From Chromatiales bacterium (GTDB lineage: Bacteria; Pseudomonadota; Gammaproteobacteria; UBA6429; Thiohalophilaceae), in NCBI GenBank assembly GCA_026984045.1, contig JALSSV010000031.1, forward strand, positions 1 to 64,000: a stretch of DNA of 64,000 nt. The letters run 5' to 3'. Shown here in pieces: positions 2,121 through 18,532 of the stretch. Position 1 is the stretch's first letter, and each line of letters opens with the position of its first letter. A program made the translations under genes and the position numbers. The notes under the pieces were generated by a model that was not told the DNA's origin, searched no databases, and saw only the letters and a list, made by a program, of their open reading frames with translations.

Positions 2121-2835
2121 AGAGGCTCTCCCTATCGGCAGCACAAAACGAGCGGCGGGAATAAACGGATTTTCTTCTGTGCGTTATCTGTCGTATTATT
2201 TGCATCGAACCGATGCTGGCGCAACCTGATCCTCACAATCATCCGCCGCAGGCCAGCTCCGTGCCAGTCTGACGAAATTCTACCGCAACCGAACCGCACT
2301 TATGAAAATGAATTCACGACAACCATTTCCTGATCGAATCGGCGTAGCACAAATCGTTTCTGCAGAAGTTATCAGGAATGTTGCTGATGAGTCGACACTG
2401 AACAATCAACATCCCGCACACACATGAATGCATGCTTTCTGCGTGATCAGTCGATAATTCCGGCAGGCAGGCCGCTCCCCTGCTGCGCCTCTCGCCATGC
2501 GGGGCAAGTCGACACCCGTACTGGCCAAGTAATCTTTGAGCATTCATATCGGACGGCCATAAAACCATCCGCAATTCCTCAGCCACTGCCGGGGACACAT
2601 AGCTGGTCGGTAACGAACCAGATGAAAACTGATGAATTGCTGGAAGCAAGGGGCCTTCATGCGTCATCGGTATCTCAGGCACAACACCTCACACAGCCCA
2701 TCCAAGGCTGATTTTACCCGATTTGCCAGCCGACGCCCGTATTTCCCACCCGGTTTCCTCCGATCCCGCTTTCACCGGAAAACGGCCTCAGGGGCGGCAA
2801 TTTGCCCATTTTTGCAGGTTTCATCACTACGGAGC
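2121..2835. other. Gene-poor stretch between cargo pair and orphan protein
   Basis: About 700 bases without a convincing gene. Short open frames exist on both strands, but none has a ribosome site together with recognisable protein character. The left part (to about 2.7 kb) is AT-richer and the right part GC-richer, so a composition boundary lies near 2.7 kb. The promoter for the minus-strand cargo pair should be here, but I could not pick one with confidence. Confidence 0.45.
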
Positions 2836-3525
2836 TCATCCCCGACTGGCACACCAGGCGCTCAAGGGCAGGATACGATCCTCGAGCCGCTCCAGGTACC
2901 CCAGCCTGCAATGGGAACCGGGTGCATCGGTACCATGACGCCGGCGCCATTCATGGCACGTGAGAGTGACCAGTGTTCCCACCTGTCGGCGGATCCCGGA
3001 AAACCCCGGTGTTCGATACAGGCTGTGCATGGCTTCCTGCAGAAATCCGGAAGAACCCGAGCGGCACGCCTGGAGGATCCGGGTTCGCCAGGCCTCAAGG
3101 CACTCTCGTGTCATGCGCCAGGTCCAGACCAGGCCGCCGCCATGTTCACTCTTGCGCGTAACACGAACCAGTTCGTAGTCATCCCCGATGCGCAGCCGGT
3201 GACGGCGATCGGTGATAGCGTGCAGTCTTTCCCGTTCGTGGGCCAGGCCATTACCGTTCGTCACGAGCAGCCACCAGAGCAGGTCATCATGCTCGGGTCG
3301 GGGCAGGAAAAACAACCGGGAATTGGCGTTTCCTTTCCTCTTGGCGTATGCACGCTGGTTGGCGTTGCGGTCAACGTGATAAAGATCGGCGAACTTGTCG
3401 GCAAGATGCGCGGCTCGCGTTATCGGCACGTGACCGGACGTGTGCCAGACATAGCCGCGGATGGCGGCATCGAGGAGGCGCTGCATCAGGACCGTTTTGT
3501 GGGTATGAACTGGTGGATCGTACAT
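2836..3525 (-). CDS. Conserved-looking hypothetical protein of the integrative element
   Basis: A 229-residue, basic, His- and Arg-rich protein. The ATG follows TGGAGA at a normal distance. Visible elements are HTHKTVLMQRLLDAAIRGY at the N-terminus, a WHTSGHVP stretch, then RLFFLPR and LLWWLLVT beta-like segments, DDYELVRVTR, and TWRMTRECLEAWR near the middle. There is no signal peptide or membrane segment, so it is probably cytoplasmic. I do not recognise a named domain. The clean reading frame and the regular alternation of hydrophobic and charged blocks argue that it is a real gene. It starts 160 bases from a perfect palindrome, with the hairpin-rich region beyond it on the way to the integrase. 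The basic character would suit nucleic-acid binding, but that is inference only. Confidence 0.7.
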   Translation of the reverse strand: MYDPPVHTHKTVLMQRLLDAAIRGYVWHTSGHVPITRAAHLADKFADLYHVDRNANQRAYAKRKGNANSRLFFLPRPEHDDLLWWLLVTNGNGLAHERERLHAITDRRHRLRIGDDYELVRVTRKSEHGGGLVWTWRMTRECLEAWRTRILQACRSGSSGFLQEAMHSLYRTPGFSGIRRQVGTLVTLTCHEWRRRHGTDAPGSHCRLGYLERLEDRILPLSAWCASRG

Positions 3526-3683
3526 GGGGTGTGTCTCCAGGCAGTGGGCTTGTCACGTATAGCGAACGCCGTCGAAAAGCTTCGTGATGCAGCGGGTGGG
3601 TATCCAGGGCAGCAACAGATGCGCGCTTGCGCGCATCGGACCGAGGCAAACCGGAGAGGGTTGCAAGTCTTTGATGTAAAAGC

Positions 3684-3718
3684 TTCATTTGAATCGGCCG
3701 GTGGCCGATTCAAATGAA
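3684..3718. repeat. Perfect 16-bp-arm palindrome
   Basis: The arms TTCATTTGAATCGGCC and GGCCGATTCAAATGAA are separated by a 3-base GGT spacer. The palindrome lies between the divergent starts of the 229-residue protein (minus strand) and the hairpin-rich region (plus strand). There is no T-run on either side, so it is not a standard terminator. It could be an operator, a recombination or replication site, or the outer stem of an RNA. The AT-rich outer part contrasts with the GC-rich hairpins that follow. Confidence 0.85.
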
Positions 3719-3720
3719 AC

Positions 3721-4860
3721 TACTGGAGATTCCAGAAGGGACGCCAGAAATGGCGACCCGGTACCTATACGAGACAGGACACTGGTGCATGTACGTTGCA
3801 CGACGGACATGACCGGGGGCCTGGCTCACCACCACCTGTGGGGGGCCTCACCAGCCCCCGACACCACCGTCACTGCCCCGAACGGGGCACGGCCGGACCA
3901 CCAATCCGGTCAGGCCGGGACCACTAATCCCGGCTGAGCACGCGCTGTAGCCGTATGCCCGTAGTTGGGCTCGTACGGCTGCGACGGGCGCTCCGGGCTG
4001 CAATGCCCGGTTCGACCCAATCCACACCGCAGTGGTGAGATTGGGCGACGCGGAAACGGGCCGGAGGGGGATATGCAACTGCATTGAAACCGAAGGAACC
4101 CTGTCGCAGATGAAGGTGGTGAAAATCCCCACCGGGGGGTGCTCGAGAGGGTACAACCCGGTCCCGACTGGTGGGCTTCACGCATGGCGGGAAACCGTCA
4201 TGAGGTCGCAAGGGGAAACCTGGAGCGGCTGGTACCAACCGGGGCAACCTGGGTGGATCGATGCATAGCTCAAGCCAGTAACGGCATCCCCGGAGGATGC
4301 TGTCGGGTAAGCGAACGATCGCCAGTGCCGGTCCTGAAGTGGCCGGTTGACTGAAGCTGGAAGGTTCATGACGGTAAGGGAGGCGCTTTGGAATCTCTGC
4401 CCCCTGAAAACCAATTGGCGAGGTGGAAAACACCACGTCATGAACATGAGGCGCTGGCTAGGTAGTGACATTTGCGTACTAACGCGGGAAGGCCTAAAGG
4501 CGATGACGGGGTTGGTACCCCCTGAGCCCATGGCCGGGAGCGATGTGAGTAGACCATAAACCTTGCTGGTGATTCAGTCGAAGCCGCAAGGGAGGCGCAA
4601 GCCAGCCGGGGGTGGTATCCCGGTGTCGAAAGCATCAGGCGTATGCGAAAGTGACTGGGCGTGGTAGCCCGGGTGGTGTGTGAGCGTGCCCTGACTGAAC
4701 GGGTGGTGCCGCAGATCCAGGTCGCATGTTTGGGGGTGGTACCCTCACAGCTCAACAATGTTCAACGTAGCGATGATATGGAGGTATTCGAGATTGGCCG
4801 TTCTTATTCGGGTCTGGCCAGCCCACTCGGTGCCCCACCATTTCGGTGGTGGGGTACCTA
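3721..4860 (+). ncRNA. Candidate large structured RNA of the integrative element
   Basis: About 1.1 kb between the palindrome and the integrase stop with no convincing protein frame. The plus strand has a near-continuous series of hairpins. Examples: 3723-3735; 3742-3755 (stem CGCCA/TGGCG, loop GAAA); 3785-3801; 3841-3859 (loop CTCACCA); 3874-3889; 3893-3909 (loop CCACCAA); 3915-3933 (loop CCACTAA); 3947-3982; 3993-4010; 4016-4045; 4185-4200 (loop GAAA); 4281-4303 (nine pairs with a G.U); 4422-4434; 4474-4485; 4508-4521 (loop TTGGTA); 4594-4603 (loop GCAA); 4606-4623; 4655-4672; 4731-4747 (loop TGGTA); 4833-4854. GNRA loops and G.U pairs occur on the plus strand and would be lost on the other, which fixes the likely transcribed strand. 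I cannot match it to a known RNA class. Ends are approximate and no promoter was identified. Confidence 0.6.
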
Positions 4861-4866
4861 CCAACT

Positions 4867-6465
4867 TCATCCGTGCTCAGGGACGAGAACGGGTATTTCG
4901 AGACCGGGGTAGTGTATGCGCCTGATCGCCTCATTGAGGCGTCTTATCGAAAAGGTACTGCCATACCGCCGGCCCATTCGCTGTGTATTGCTGTGTCCCA
5001 TGAGTGCGTCGGAAATCTCCTCGTCAAGGCCGGCTTCACGGCACGCATCCCGGAATGTATGCCGGAAGCTGTGGAACACCTTGCGCCGGTCGGTGATGCC
5101 CAATTCCTCTCGGATGTGCTTCATGAAGGCCTTGGAGAAAGCTGCCGAATACTTGCCGAAGCGGTCTGGCCGCAAGTCGGGGAAGAGCCGGATTTCCCCC
5201 TTGTTCCGCAATCGATCAAGGTAACGAAGAAATCCTGCGTCGATAATCCGGGGATGCAAGGGCAGTCGTCGCCTTGATGAGGCATTCTTGAGACGCTTTC
5301 GGGTACCCTGCTGTTCGGATTCGTCATCGATAACGACGCACCAGATGCCGTCAATTTGCTGAATGTCCTCAACCAGAAGCTGGGCCAGTTCTTCCACACG
5401 GCATCCCTGATAGAGCGCGAGCAGCGGAAGCCAGACACCGGCATCGCCAATACGGCGTCCGAGTCGCTTTCCCTGTGTATACAGAGGCGAGCAAAAGATC
5501 CGTCTGAGTTCGTCCAGATCAAACGGCAAGCGGTGACGGCTGTCGCTTCGGGGTATGGGGATCCGCTGTGCAGGATTGACGAACAGCTTTCCGTTGTTGA
5601 TGCCGACGTTGAACAGGGCACAGAGGAAGGTGATCTTCTTCGCGACAGTCTTGGGTCGCAGCCCCCGTCCAATCAATTCATCGCGATAGCGGATGACATC
5701 CTGCCGCGTCACCGATTCCGCCGTTTTCCGGCCCGTAGAGCGCCGGAAGTCGTTCAACACCCGACGCACGTCTTCGACGGTGCGCTCGGGTCGGCGGGGA
5801 TCGAACCGCTGCCAGTCCTCGAAAAGCGTATCGAGGATGGTGTCGCCGGTCCGGGGTTGAGACAGGCGACTGGCGGCAACCGGCTCCGGGGTCCACACCA
5901 CCTCGCCTTCGTCGCGCGCAAGCTGCTGGTCGTGAACCTCCGTGGCAGTTTGCAGGAACCGATACAGGAGCTCCCGGTATTTCGACTCGTTGCCCCGCAG
6001 CTCGATGCCAAGGAGGTTCAGGAAGACCGTCAGTGCCGGTTCGATGGCTTCGAGTCGAGACTCCCTGAGAACGTCTCTGAGGGCTTCGCGGGTTTCGAGC
6101 CGCTCGGCTTTGCGCTCTACGAGTTCGTCGAGGAAAAAGCCTTCCCGCCGGTGGTATTCATCGTTGGCAAGGCTGAGGTGACGCCACAGGTCACAGATCT
6201 CCCGGATCAGTTCATCGTTGATGATCAGGGGTGATGTGATGGCCTGCCGGCGCTGGATCTCGTTTCGGAGTTGTTCGCAACGCCGATCAAAATCGACAGA
6301 CGCCTGTCGGGCAAGCCGACGTGCTTCAGCCGGATCGCGAGTTCGGAGGGAAAACTTTTCCTCGACTTTGCCGAGATAAGGCTGAAGATCTCGCGGAATC
6401 TTTACCCTGAAATAATATGTGGCATTACGCCGAATCAACCGTGTTTGGGCGTGCATATCCGTCAT
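4867..6465 (-). CDS. Tyrosine site-specific integrase
   Basis: A 532-residue phage-type integrase. The N-terminus (about 8-65: RRNATYYFRVKIPRDLQPYL, then SLRTRDPAEARRLA) resembles the DUF6538-type arm-binding start of many integrases in tRNA genes. A core-binding region spans about 215-300 and the catalytic domain about 310-505. The catalytic residues are visible: Arg356 in CRVEE, a basic strand SSRRRLPLHP, His465 and Arg468 in HSFRH, His491 in GHS and the nucleophile Tyr501 in RRYGS. It therefore looks intact and active. It reads away from tRNA-Ser(GGA), whose 3' end lies 90 bases upstream, the usual layout for an integrase beside its own attachment site. The stop codon abuts the end of the hairpin-rich region, so the two would be transcribed toward each other. 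Confidence 0.93.
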   Translation of the reverse strand: MTDMHAQTRLIRRNATYYFRVKIPRDLQPYLGKVEEKFSLRTRDPAEARRLARQASVDFDRRCEQLRNEIQRRQAITSPLIINDELIREICDLWRHLSLANDEYHRREGFFLDELVERKAERLETREALRDVLRESRLEAIEPALTVFLNLLGIELRGNESKYRELLYRFLQTATEVHDQQLARDEGEVVWTPEPVAASRLSQPRTGDTILDTLFEDWQRFDPRRPERTVEDVRRVLNDFRRSTGRKTAESVTRQDVIRYRDELIGRGLRPKTVAKKITFLCALFNVGINNGKLFVNPAQRIPIPRSDSRHRLPFDLDELRRIFCSPLYTQGKRLGRRIGDAGVWLPLLALYQGCRVEELAQLLVEDIQQIDGIWCVVIDDESEQQGTRKRLKNASSRRRLPLHPRIIDAGFLRYLDRLRNKGEIRLFPDLRPDRFGKYSAAFSKAFMKHIREELGITDRRKVFHSFRHTFRDACREAGLDEEISDALMGHSNTQRMGRRYGSTFSIRRLNEAIRRIHYPGLEIPVLVPEHG

Positions 6466-6468
6466 CTC

Positions 6469-6490
6469 GGTGTACCACCTTGGTGTACCA
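6469..6490. repeat. Direct repeats upstream of the integrase
   Basis: GGTGTACCA occurs twice (6469-6477 and 6482-6490), 13 bases apart, between the integrase start and the tRNA attachment region. A related GGTACC follows at 6505-6510. The position and spacing fit arm-type binding sites for the integrase or an operator for its gene. No direct evidence separates these options. Confidence 0.45.
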
Positions 6491-6554
6491 GACGGATATG
6501 TATAGGTACCGAAGGATCAAAAACTTGTAAGTCCTTCAAATACCTAGAGAAATT

Positions 6555-6645
6555 TGGCGGAGAGGGAGGGATTCGAACCCTCGATACGGGGTTACCGTAT
6601 ACACACTTTCCAGGCGTGCTCCTTCGACCACTCGGACACCTCTCC
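6555..6645 (-). tRNA. tRNA-Ser(GGA), integration target
   Basis: A 91-base serine tRNA on the minus strand with encoded CCA. It has a seven-pair acceptor stem starting GGAGAGG, a long variable arm, the T-loop GGTTCGAATCC and anticodon GGA in the loop CTGGAAA. The 3' end points to the integrase, so the left attachment junction should lie in the 3' part of this gene. The tRNA is complete, meaning the element rebuilt its 3' end on integration. Confidence 0.97.
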
Positions 6646-6811
6646 GGGGTGTGGGTCATCACGAGAGCGGGGCTCGTGAAGCGCGGCATTTTACCACAAT
6701 CCGGGGAAAAATCATGGTGGGCGAGGGAAAGTTATTTGGTGATATTGCAAAAGGTTGAATGACGTGGGAGTGTCGTGGCAGGGGGCGCCGCTCCTTCAGA
6801 AGGAGAGTGTG

Positions 6812-6848
6812 GAAGAAGAAAGGGCCGCGGAGCGGCCCTTTCTTCTTC
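6812..6848 (-). terminator. Terminator downstream of pnp
   Basis: A perfect 17-base inverted repeat with a 3-base loop. The stem core is AAGGGCCGC/GCGGCCCTT, continued by a pyrimidine-rich TTTCTTCTTC on the minus strand. It lies 20 bases past the pnp stop and closes the rimP-to-pnp operon. Confidence 0.85.
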
Positions 6849-6867
6849 ATGATTGTCAGACCCGGAT

Positions 6868-8955
6868 TCAGTCCTTGCCGACGGCTTTCATGGAAAGGCG
6901 GATGCGGCCCTGTTTGTCGACTTCGAGGACCTTGACCTTGACGATGTCGCCTTCGGAGAGCTTGTCGGAGACGTTTTCGACGCGCTCGTCGCTGATCTGG
7001 GAGACGTGGACCAGGCCGTCCTTGCCGGGGAGGATGGTGACGAAGGCGCCGAAGTCCATGAGTTTGGCGACCTTGCCTTCGTAGACCTTGCCCACTTCGA
7101 CGTCGGCGGTGAGCTGTTCGACGCGGCGGCGGGCTTCGTTGGCGGCGGCGGAGTCGCTGGAGGCGATCTTGACCAGACCGTCGTCGCTGATGTCGATGGT
7201 GGTGCCGGTTTCCTCGGTGATGGCGCGGATGGTGGCGCCGCCCTTGCCGATCACGTCGCGGATCTTGTCGGGGTTGATCTTGAAGGTGATGTAGCGCGGG
7301 GCGTAGACCGACATTTCGGTACGCGGCTCGGCGATCACCTCGTTCATCTTGCCGAGGATGTGCAGGCGGCCTTCCTTCGCCTGTTCGAGGGCGATTTCCA
7401 TGATCTGGCGGGTGATGCCGTCGATCTTGATGTCCATCTGCAGGGCAGTGACGCCGTCCCGGCTGCCGGCCACCTTGAAGTCCATGTCGCCGAGGTGGTC
7501 CTCGTCACCGAGGATGTCGGTGAGGACGGCGAACTTGTCGTCTTCCTTGATCAGGCCCATGGCGATGCCGGCCACGGGGGCCTTGAGGGGCACGCCGGCG
7601 TCCATCAGGGCGAGGCTGGTGCCGCACACGGAGGCCATGGAGCTGGAGCCGTTGGATTCGGTGATCTCGGAGACCACGCGGATGGTGTAGGGGAATTCGT
7701 CCTGGCTGGGCATGACGCCGAGCACGCCGCGCTTGGCGAGGCGGCCGTGGCCGATCTCGCGGCGCTTGGGGCTGCCGACGCGGCCGGTTTCACCGACGCA
7801 GAAGGGCGGGAAGTTGTACTGGAGCATGAAGGGCTCGCGGTAGGTGCCTTCCAGGGCGTCGATGATCTGGGCCTCGCGCTCGGTGCCGAGGGTGGCGGTG
7901 ACCAGGGCCTGGGTCTCGCCGCGGGTGAACAGGGCCGAGCCGTGGGTGCGGGGCAGCACGCCGACCCTGACATTGATGGGCCGCACGGTGCGGGTGTCGC
8001 GGCCGTCGATGCGCGGTTCGCCGTTGAGGATCTTGCCGCGCACCACGCGTTTTTCGAGTTTCTCGATGGCGCCGCGCACTTCCTCTTCGCTGTAGGGGCC
8101 TTCCTCGCCGGCGAGCTTTTCAATGATTTCACTGCGGATCTCGCCAAGACGGTTGTAGCGGGGCTGCTTCTCGCGAATGGTGTAGGCTTCCTTGAAGGCG
8201 GCTTCGCCAAGTTCGGCCACGGCCTTTTCCAGGTCTTGATTCTTCTCTGGCGGCGTCCACGCCATGGGCTCGGGGCCCACCTCGGCAGCGAACTCCTTGA
8301 TGGCCTGGATGACGGCCTGCTGCTGTTCGTGACCAAACATGACGGCGCCGAGCATGACTTCCTCGGAGAGCAGCCTGGCTTCCGACTCCACCATGAGCAC
8401 GGCGTTCTCGGTACCGGAAACCACCAGATCCAGTTCCGATTCCTTGAGTTTGGCGATGGAAGGATTGAGGACGTATTCGCCGTCGATGTAACCCACCCGG
8501 GCCGCGCCGATGGGGCCGTTGAAGGGGACGCCGGCGATGGACAGGGCGGCGGAGACGCCGATCATGGCCACGATGTCGGGGCTGACGTCCGGATCCATCG
8601 ACAGCACGGTGGCGATGATCTGGACTTCGTTGGTAAAGCCTTCGGGGAACAGGGGCCGGACGGGGCGATCGATGAGGCGGGAGGTAAGGGTCTCGTGCTC
8701 GGAGGGTCGCCCTTCCCGCTTGAGGAAGCCGCCGGGAATCTTGCCGGCAGCGTAGGTCTTTTCCTGATAGTCCACGGTCAGGGGGAAGAAGTCGCGGCCT
8801 TCCGCGGCCTTCTTGTCGGCCACCACGGTGGCGAGGACGACCGTGTCGCCCATCCGGGTCATGACGGCGCCTGTGGCCTGTCGGGCGATTTCGCCGGTTT
8901 CCAGGGTGACGGCATGGGCGCCGTATTGAAATTCTTTCTTCACAGGGGTCGGCAT
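6868..8955 (-). CDS. pnp: Polyribonucleotide nucleotidyltransferase
   Basis: A 695-residue PNPase that degrades RNA 3'-to-5' by phosphorolysis, in the cytoplasm and often in the degradosome. Domains in order: a first RNase PH domain (about 5-140), a helical linker, a second RNase PH domain (about 315-540), a KH domain ([10 protein letters not shown], about 555-615) and an S1 domain ([20 protein letters not shown], about 620-690). Length is normal. It lies 43 bases after rpsO, the conserved rpsO-pnp order. In enterobacteria pnp is autoregulated through this leader; the gap here is short, so I cannot say whether that applies. Confidence 0.98.
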
Positions 8956-8998: not shown

Positions 8999-9268
8999 TT
9001 ACTTGCGCAGGCCCAGACGGGTGATCAGTTCGCGATAGCGATCCAGATCCTTTTTCTTCAGGTAATCCAGCAGCTTACGACGCTGACTTACCATGCGCAG
9101 CAGACCCTGACGGGAATGGTGGTCGTGGATGTGTTCCTTGAAGTGTCCGGACAGATCGTTGATCCGGGCGGACAGCAGGGCGACCTGGACTTCCGGCGAA
9201 CCGGTGTCGCCCTTGCCGCGGGCGTATTCGTTGACGATAGCGGCCTTTTGTTCGGCACTGATGGCCAT
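8999..9268 (-). CDS. rpsO: 30S ribosomal protein S15
   Basis: An 89-residue S15, full length, starting at [13 protein letters not shown] 12-codon upstream extension of the frame is not part of the family. The 16S-binding signature [20 protein letters not shown] is intact. S15 is a primary binder of the central domain of 16S rRNA. The 106-base gap from truB is the largest in this part of the operon and probably carries a promoter for rpsO-pnp. Confidence 0.98.
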
Positions 9269-9374
9269 TCGCAAGCTCCTGTAATCTGTAAAAAATTCGA
9301 CCAATTTCGGAAAGCGCGTATTCTACCCGCGCAGCCGGGCGCAGACAAGAAAATCCGCGGGAAATTCCCCGTTT

Positions 9375-10292
9375 TCAGCCACTCTTGATGAGCCGTTTCG
9401 GCGCCACCCGGCCGTCATCGAGGATGTGGCCCACGCCGAGGAAGGCGCCATCAGGCCGGTGCAGACGCACCCACCCGGCGGTGGGGGCCTGGGGCACCAG
9501 CACCGGCTGGCCCTGCTGCACGTAGTAGGCCGAGTTGTCGGTGAGGTTCACCGCGGGCCAGTCGGCCAGGGCCCGTTCGATGGGCAGCAGCAGGGCGTCG
9601 AGGGCGTCGGTGCCCTGCTCCGCCGCAGTTTCGATCTGCGCCATGGTCACCGCCTCGTCGATGTCGAAGGGGCCGGAGGCGGTGCGGCGCAGGGCGGACA
9701 GGTGCCCGCCGCAGCCCAGGGCCTCGCCGATTTCCTCGGCCAGGGTGCGGACATAGGTGCCCTTGGAACAGTGGATGGAGATTTCCAGCTCGTCGCCTGC
9801 GTGGCGCAACAGTTCGATGCTGTGGATGGTGACCGTGCGCGGCTTGCGCTCGATCTCCATCCCCTTGTGGGCCAGCTTGTACAACGGCGTGCCATTGACC
9901 TTGACCGCCGAGTGCATGGGCGGCACCTGTTCGATCTCGCCGGTGAAGCGTTCCAGTACGTCGCGGATCTGCGCCTCATCGTACTCGCCCACCGGGCGGG
10001 TCTCCAGCACCTCGCCTTCGGCATCGGCGGTGCGGGTGATCACGCCGAGCTTGATGGTGCCCACGTAACGCTTGTCGGAATCCAGCAGGAAGCTGGAAAT
10101 CTTGGTCGCTTCGCCGAAGCAGATGGGCAGAAGGCCGGTGGCCAGCGGGTCGAGATTGCCCGTGTGCCCCGCCTTGGCGGCGCGGAACAGGCGCTTGACC
10201 TGCTGCAGCGCGGCGTTGGAGGTGACGCCCAGCGGCTTGTCGAGCAGGAGGATGCCGTTGACGGGACGGCCCCGGTTTCGTCTGCGTGCCAC
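9375..10292 (-). CDS. truB: tRNA pseudouridine(55) synthase
   Basis: A 305-residue enzyme that makes pseudouridine 55 in the T-loop of tRNAs. The catalytic Asp is in GHTGNLDPLATGLLP, near the N-terminus. A C-terminal PUA-like region (from about 245, with GWVRLHRPDGAFLGVGHI) completes the family architecture. The start is 2 bases from the rbfA stop, so translation is probably coupled within the rimP-to-pnp operon. Confidence 0.97.
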   Translation of the reverse strand: MARRRNRGRPVNGILLLDKPLGVTSNAALQQVKRLFRAAKAGHTGNLDPLATGLLPICFGEATKISSFLLDSDKRYVGTIKLGVITRTADAEGEVLETRPVGEYDEAQIRDVLERFTGEIEQVPPMHSAVKVNGTPLYKLAHKGMEIERKPRTVTIHSIELLRHAGDELEISIHCSKGTYVRTLAEEIGEALGCGGHLSALRRTASGPFDIDEAVTMAQIETAAEQGTDALDALLLPIERALADWPAVNLTDNSAYYVQQGQPVLVPQAPTAGWVRLHRPDGAFLGVGHILDDGRVAPKRLIKSG

Positions 10293-18010: not shown

Positions 18011-18532
18011 TCAGGCCGCCCGGGGCAGGTTCGGGGTGGGCGCGCGGCTCAGCCGGTCGGCCAGGCGCAGCATGGCCGGGATGCGGCCTGCGCCAGCCAT
18101 TTTGGCAACCAGGGCGTGAGCCCTGGCCAGAGGCAGACCGGCAGCGGTGACATACAAAGGCCGTCGGCTTTGGCCGCGATACAGGGCGCAGGCCGGATCC
18201 ATGCCATGAAAGAGGTTCTTGGCCACGCCGATCACCGGAATCCGGCCACCAAGGGTCTGGTGAAGATACGCCCCGAGACCGGGCCGCCGGTGGCCGTCGA
18301 GAAACACATGGCCGTCGATGAACAACACTGCGGCTTGCAGCCGGTGGATGCGCAGCAGATGCAGGATGGGCGGCAGCTCGCGTCGCCAGAACGCGCCGGG
18401 TTCGTAGGGCGCGATGCCGTTCAGGGTGGCGGTGAAGGTCGCCTCCGGCCGATCCGCATCGATGCGTTCGAAAGCCACCCCGGCGACATGGGCTGTCTCA
18501 TCCCGATAGTAGACGTCGGTGGCGAGGAACAT
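18011..18532 (-). CDS. Endonuclease V-like protein
   Basis: A 173-residue protein with the endonuclease V core: Asp6 in ATDVYY, Glu52 in WRRELPPIL and Asp73 in FIDGH match the metal-binding residues of Nfi. GLGAYLHQ and IPVIGVAKNLF are further family blocks. Nfi cleaves DNA near deaminated bases such as hypoxanthine. This form is about 50 residues shorter than Escherichia coli Nfi: it lacks the N-terminal helical part and a central segment. It may therefore be a short subfamily with altered substrate. It sits upstream of a Nudix gene. Confidence 0.8.
   Translation of the reverse strand: MFLATDVYYRDETAHVAGVAFERIDADRPEATFTATLNGIAPYEPGAFWRRELPPILHLLRIHRLQAAVLFIDGHVFLDGHRRPGLGAYLHQTLGGRIPVIGVAKNLFHGMDPACALYRGQSRRPLYVTAAGLPLARAHALVAKMAGAGRIPAMLRLADRLSRAPTPNLPRAA

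Follow-up and report, generated by a model that had tools for sequence, protein, structure and literature searches.

What does a chromosomal contig of a Chromatiales bacterium (Gammaproteobacteria; UBA6429; Thiohalophilaceae) encode between the gene of a 229-residue protein and that of a tyrosine integrase? The window that we analysed comprises 64,000 nt, positions 1-64,000 of contig JALSSV010000031.1 (GCA_026984045.1), on the forward strand. Examination of its open reading frames supported no gene between the start of the smaller protein, an acpG homologue, at 3525 and the stop of the integrase at 4867, in agreement with the earlier note, which had seen no convincing gene there and had proposed a large, unclassified RNA. 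The interval does encode an RNA and, with a probability of about 96%, this is a circularly permuted (CP) group II ribozyme that shares an integrase-bearing element at a tRNA-Ser gene with its companion acpG.

Six close relatives from independent genomes were aligned over the whole RNA, and a consensus fold was generated using RNAalifold. It contains 305 pairs, of which 120 show compensatory changes, against 22-31 when the partners were slid and a mean of 50 (maximum 62) in 200 shuffles. Of the cells of these pairs, 93.9% were paired, as compared to 36-42% with slid partners; since structure and test share one alignment, the slid control is somewhat favourable, and the gap is large enough to make this bias unimportant. 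The folding energy was -392.6 kcal/mol for the plus strand, -289.8 for the minus strand and about -119 for column-shuffled alignments. Positions 3794-4775 of the plus strand thus encode a large structured RNA, the boundaries being those of the conserved pairing, with a closing helix in the consensus fold between 3794-3810 and 4758-4775. As a single consensus fold, it includes some long-range pairs, for example near the splice sites described below, which compete with the group II arrangement and should not be taken for native structure. Sequence conserved among close relatives is wider than this paired core and extends over about 3727-4858. Size, strand and the compensatory base changes to be sought in aligned homologues had all been anticipated correctly from the letters of the window alone.

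The class to which we assign this RNA was described by Roth et al. (2021, iScience, PMC8637638) as a group II ribozyme permuted to the order D5-D6-D1-D2-D3-D4, which in vitro produces a branched RNA together with a small circle. The carriers named there include pPNAP05 of Polaromonas (59 kb) and a Thermus thermophilus plasmid; the pPNAP05 RNA was tested catalytically and has a predicted circle of 32 nt, and processing in vivo has been demonstrated for none of the members (PMC8637638). By blastn the window RNA matches the pPNAP05 RNA and about 37 plasmids. The statement of the earlier note that it could be matched to no class does not hold. That statement is explained by Rfam, which for positions 2300-6700 had no hit at gathering score and no credible one up to E 10; at gathering score, Rfam 15 gave no match for the published pPNAP05 and Thermus copies either (L021, L015 and L027 searched). 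The CP group II class thus seems to be without an effective Rfam model, and with Rfam 15 blind to it, further copies will be read as unknown RNAs.

Domain V (D5) lies at 3949-3980 (+) and accounts for the stem with G.U pairs at 3947-3982 that had been noticed before, which is the catalytic domain. It consists of the AGC triad (3949-3951), five pairs (3952-3956 with 3973-3977), a 2-nt UC bulge (U3971 and C3972), four further pairs and a UAGU loop. Over 18 sequences its 12 pairs were 98.6% paired, with 8 pairs doubly changed. Domain VI (D6; 3986-4018, +) carries the TTCGA-CYC motif with a bulged branch-point adenosine, A4015, lying within a CGA that is invariant throughout the alignment, and its basal pairs are compensated (GGG/CCC, GAG/CTC, AAG/CTT). 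In the 18-sequence alignment, 97.6% of the cells of D5 and D6 taken together are standard pairs, and 16 of 21 pairs are doubly changed; slid controls gave 40-45%. A D5-D6 cmsearch returned a single match in the window (119.5 bits), indicating that there is no canonical D5 downstream of D4. Both domains lie 5' of the splice site at 4043 and of the EBS1 loop at 4392, as the permuted order has it.

The splice sites follow directly. After D6, AAU (4019-4021) satisfies the NU rule of the 3' splice site and is followed by 21 nt and then by GGGCG (4043-4047, +), the 5' splice-site motif with which D1 starts. The predicted excised 'exon' is therefore 4022-4042 (+), bounded by the 3' splice site (4021|4022) on one side and the 5' splice site (4042|4043) on the other. 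The same linker rule, counting from the NU after D6 to GGGCG, gives 32 nt in pPNAP05, which equals the published circle; the 21 nt of the window fall within the 15-86 nt reported for the class (PMC8637638). In alignment A2 (16 sequences), TTGGGCGAC is invariant from the T through the C of GGGCGAC. IBS1 (GAGATT, 4037-4042, +) is complementary at 6/6 positions to EBS1 (AATCTC, 4392-4397, +), which lies inside a terminal loop of D1 (4385-4398), and G4391, just 5' of EBS1, pairs with exon C4022 as delta-delta'. In a comparison from which several rows, L056, L040, L012 and L018 among them, were left out, both elements are changed at L039 (AGTCCC/GGGACT) and complementarity is still 6/6.

The remaining domains were placed approximately. 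Domain I (4043-4475, +) follows the 5' splice site, contains the EBS1 loop and comprises helices of the consensus fold; domains II-IV take up 4476-4757 (+) without individual limits, and the alignments and fold make the GGTTGGTACC hairpin at 4509-4520 (+) the probable D2. Upstream of D5, the P1 region (3815-3859, +) has a stem and loop conserved in the close clade. By analogy with the published structure (PMC8637638), the loop CCTCACCAG of its hairpin (3841-3860, +) and the 3' segment GGGTGGTGCC (about 4702-4714) are candidate partners in a P1/3'-end pseudoknot. P2, just 5' of D5 (3913-3935, +), has 7 of 8 pairs compensated; complementarity between its loop and D2, judged by eye, is present in most plasmid copies, amounts to only 4 bp in the window and is absent in some close relatives. 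Loops of the GGTGGTA type are common to the hairpins at 4509-4520, 4607-4622, 4656-4671 and 4730-4746, and the same hairpins read TGGCA in the Azotobacter and Halomonas copies; these loops are possibly several competing partners for the P1 and P2 loops.

By analogy with the published class, the window copy should be catalytic and should branch and form a circle. Its group II core would fold with D5-D6 ahead of D1-D4, as in published members. The 2'-OH of A4015 would then attack the 5' splice site between T4042 and G4043, placed by the IBS1-EBS1 pairing, and the freed 3'-OH of the 21-nt segment would attack the 3' splice site between T4021 and C4022. The predicted products are a T-shaped branched ribozyme and a 21-nt RNA circle (4022-4042), which head to tail reads CCACACCGCAGTGGTGAGATT.

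With the CP group II class the window RNA shares the AGC triad, the UN bulge, the branch A, the NU and GGGCG splice sites and the EBS1-IBS1 pairing, as well as the D5-D6-linker-D1-D4 order, an adjacent acpG, the lack of a reverse transcriptase ORF and homologues on plasmids. It differs from the published members in lying on a chromosomal contig, within an integrase element at a tRNA-Ser gene, and in the extra conserved 5' stretch of its clade (about 3727-3838). Canonical bacterial group II introns share these domains and presumably the two-step transesterification chemistry, but carry D5-D6 at their 3' end and usually a reverse transcriptase/maturase ORF. The window RNA has neither: it is permuted, its splice sites are internal and a circle would take the place of ligated exons. 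We observed no convincing ORF within the RNA, that is, no intron-encoded protein, and none of the nearby ORFs examined was a reverse transcriptase gene.

The companion gene (2836-3525, -) is divergent from the RNA. In phmmer searches its 229-residue product matched ORFs beside CP group II RNAs with E-values of 3e-44 to 2e-6, and the divergent ORF next to the pPNAP05 RNA with 6e-16 (29% identity over 96%). Homologues lie beside the RNA in Paraburkholderia, Pandoraea, Gluconacetobacter, Azotobacter, Halomonas, Burkholderia, E. coli, pMtBL, Paraphotobacterium and Thermus, the Thermus plasmid homologue being of the TTHC007 type. Judged by these matches, the protein is AcpG, the named companion of CP group II RNA, which is often but not always nearby and for which no function is known (PMC8637638). 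We obtained no Pfam, PHROGs or PDB family for it and no credible match in a PDB profile search, and a single-sequence AlphaFold2 model had a pLDDT of 44. Between acpG and the RNA lies an inverted repeat (3681-3721) with 19-nt arms; it had been called a perfect palindrome, and the repeat is real but its arms are 95% complementary. The GAATC..GATTC repeat at this place recurs with changed letters in close relatives. It could be an operator for the divergent acpG/RNA pair. A promoter scan found no sigma-70-like promoter. At the other end, between the convergent RNA and integrase, a CCCCACC..GGTGGGG hairpin (4831-4858) is terminator-like by position; a consensus terminator scan did not call it, and a similar hairpin is present in L004 and other relatives.

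The integrase (4867-6465, -; 532 aa) is convergent with the RNA and matches Pfam DUF6538 (9.7e-21) and Phage_integrase (5.7e-10). It starts 90 bp from the 3' end of a tRNA-Ser(GGA) gene found by ARAGORN (6555-6645, -), the presumed attachment site, so that both of these neighbours had been named rightly. The order tRNA-Ser, DUF6538 tyrosine integrase, convergent RNA and divergent acpG is found not only in the window but also in another MAG and in a further, third family of bacteria. It is present at L004, found via its integrase (66% identity), and at L042 (genome G297, another family), found via the RNA alone (integrase identity 60%). At L042 the 19-bp end of the tRNA gene, AATCCCTCCCTCTCCGCCA, occurs at 6810 and 18546, with a one-mismatch copy at 18368; the repeat encloses a segment of about 11.7 kb whose cargo comprises two radical-SAM genes and a transposase of IS type. 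In the assembly of the window's own genome we found no such tRNA-end repeat or second attachment site; position 1 of the window is also the start of the contig, so the far end of the element may not be covered. On the contig-start side of acpG, rhodanese-like and transglutaminase-like genes (424-2144, -) may be either cargo or host genes.

Searching with the RNA alone, we found a tyrosine integrase within 11 kb at 6 of 7 other chromosomal loci. In G365 a DUF6538 integrase adjoins the RNA; on contig 21 of G191 a tyrosine integrase is located at tRNA-Met; in G783, G784 and contig 56 of G191 the distance is 7-11 kb. G783 and G784 are, like G297, complete genomes, and all three belong to one genus. 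At the integrase density of these genomes, the chance of one so close is 5-9% per locus, giving about 6e-6 for 5 of 6 when one sister lineage is dropped, a rough figure, with the distance set after the fact and contigs that were short or plasmid-like (G320, G399, G699) excluded. A strict coupling of the RNA to the DUF6538 integrase was rejected: integrase homologues of the 66-71% identity class at L003, L005 and L006 have no RNA in the flanks examined, and their elements have different cargo, KfrA or GmrSD genes for example. L005, at tRNA-Ser(CGA), and L006 have GmrSD-type restriction genes and a WYL regulator in place of the RNA. Integrases are unmentioned in the main text of Roth et al. (PMC8637638). 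The earlier suggestion that RNA, integrase and protein may form one undescribed module thus stands in a narrow sense only: the RNA-acpG pair had already been published, and the regular placement by a tyrosine integrase at tRNA genes is absent from that main text. What is new beyond Roth et al. is mainly this genomic association, which is suggestive.

It may be asked whether the window copy is a decayed, non-functional relic of the class stranded in a chromosome. Its chromosomal location would suit this, and since the assembly shows no second attachment site the element may be incomplete. We nevertheless consider it very unlikely, as the catalytic motifs and the EBS/IBS pairing are all intact, substitutions relative to the five close homologues keep the cells paired to the 93.9% given above, and the acpG and integrase frames are open.

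The relatives bear on a second explanation. About 37 plasmid records contain DNA relatives with 64-89% identity, nearly all of them located where nothing is annotated; a few of the weakest hits may be due to chance. The carriers include E. coli, Azotobacter, Halomonas, Thiothrix, Paraburkholderia, acetic acid bacteria, Pseudoalteromonas pMtBL, Polaromonas pPNAP05, Thermus and Deinococcus, and in pPNAP05, in E. coli plasmids and in carriers such as Thermus, Azotobacter and Halomonas the homology covers 36-39% of the RNA. In E. coli, 21 of 5,426 genomes match, all on plasmids, the carriers being 3-kb RepL plasmids and plasmids of about 30 kb. This abundance on small plasmids, and the location of the pPNAP05 copy near the origin (PMC8637638), would be expected of a replication or copy-number RNA (a ColE1-like primer) captured by an integrated plasmid. 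Such a role is highly improbable because many carriers have a Rep of their own (RepL, TrfA, RepM or a ColE2-like Rep), the experimentally mapped OriR of pMtBL (1918-2759) does not overlap its RNA match (3132-3492), and pTT8 replicates without the ribozyme (Aoki and Itoh 2007, cited in PMC8637638). In Pandoraea pPO70-4 (L025, 3289-5186) an IS256-family transposase gene (3461-4726) interrupts the RNA and splits D5 from the later domains.

The RNA is rare among genomes and its distribution is patchy, which is what a mobile element would show. A covariance model that spans D5 and ends at the 5' splice site (R1) had matches in 9 of 369 genomes of the class and in 3 of 398 of a phylum sample, the window's genome being in both counts, and in no other genome of 40 in its own family. 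At L039 (contig 56 of G191) about 200 bp separate the RNA (9003-10074) from a long CRISPR array of about 54 CRISPR-DR16 repeats (3566-8791), which is interrupted by an ISL3-type transposase gene. No match by DNA or by AcpG protein was found in 50,697 phage records, and two AcpG scans of viral contigs confirmed no relative; a phage origin was rejected on these grounds. A splice-site motif scan of viral contigs gave one match, inside a phage coding region and scoring 13 bits by the model, which is probably due to chance.

A new large ornate RNA class unrelated to introns, of the GOLLD/ROOL kind suggested by the earlier note, is scarcely credible. GOLLD, ROOL and OLE resemble the window RNA in size and, for some of them, in their association with mobile elements, and a large, structured RNA in such a context without an Rfam match might be taken for one of them. 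However, D5, D6, the branch A, the splice-site motifs, EBS/IBS and AcpG all fit the CP group II class, the alignment to a published member refutes the idea, neither GOLLD nor ROOL was matched at E 10, and the RNA is absent from the phage records. For ARRPOF, a large plasmid RNA of Fusobacterium, there was likewise no Rfam match. A cruciform or hairpin array acting as DNA in integrase recombination, which the dense hairpins beside an integrase could suggest, deserves next to no credence given the asymmetry of the strands in folding energy, compensations that tolerate G.U, RNA copies on plasmids with no integrase alongside and the integrase homologues at L003, L005 and L006 that lack it in the flanks examined.

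Having identified the RNA as a CP group II ribozyme, what might it do? Since it is found on plasmids and beside integrases and not in an intron-like scatter, its role may, most plausibly, be a task of the carrier plasmid or integrated element. EBS1 is nearly invariant among distant carriers and the linker is variable, a pattern that agrees better with a conserved trans target than with a function of the circle; a structural constraint internal to the RNA could also keep the EBS1 loop. As a tentative and rather doubtful generalisation, CP group II ribozymes may be, instead of stray introns, standard equipment of certain plasmids and integrase-borne elements, the acpG-ribozyme pair plugging into replicons or tRNA-integrating elements, and a conserved trans target, not the circle, may be what matters. 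The chromosomal copies that lie in tRNA-targeted integrase elements form a clean set, one of them with a measurable boundary repeat, and this makes the role testable, since elements that have or lack the ribozyme can be compared for excision, transfer and stability.
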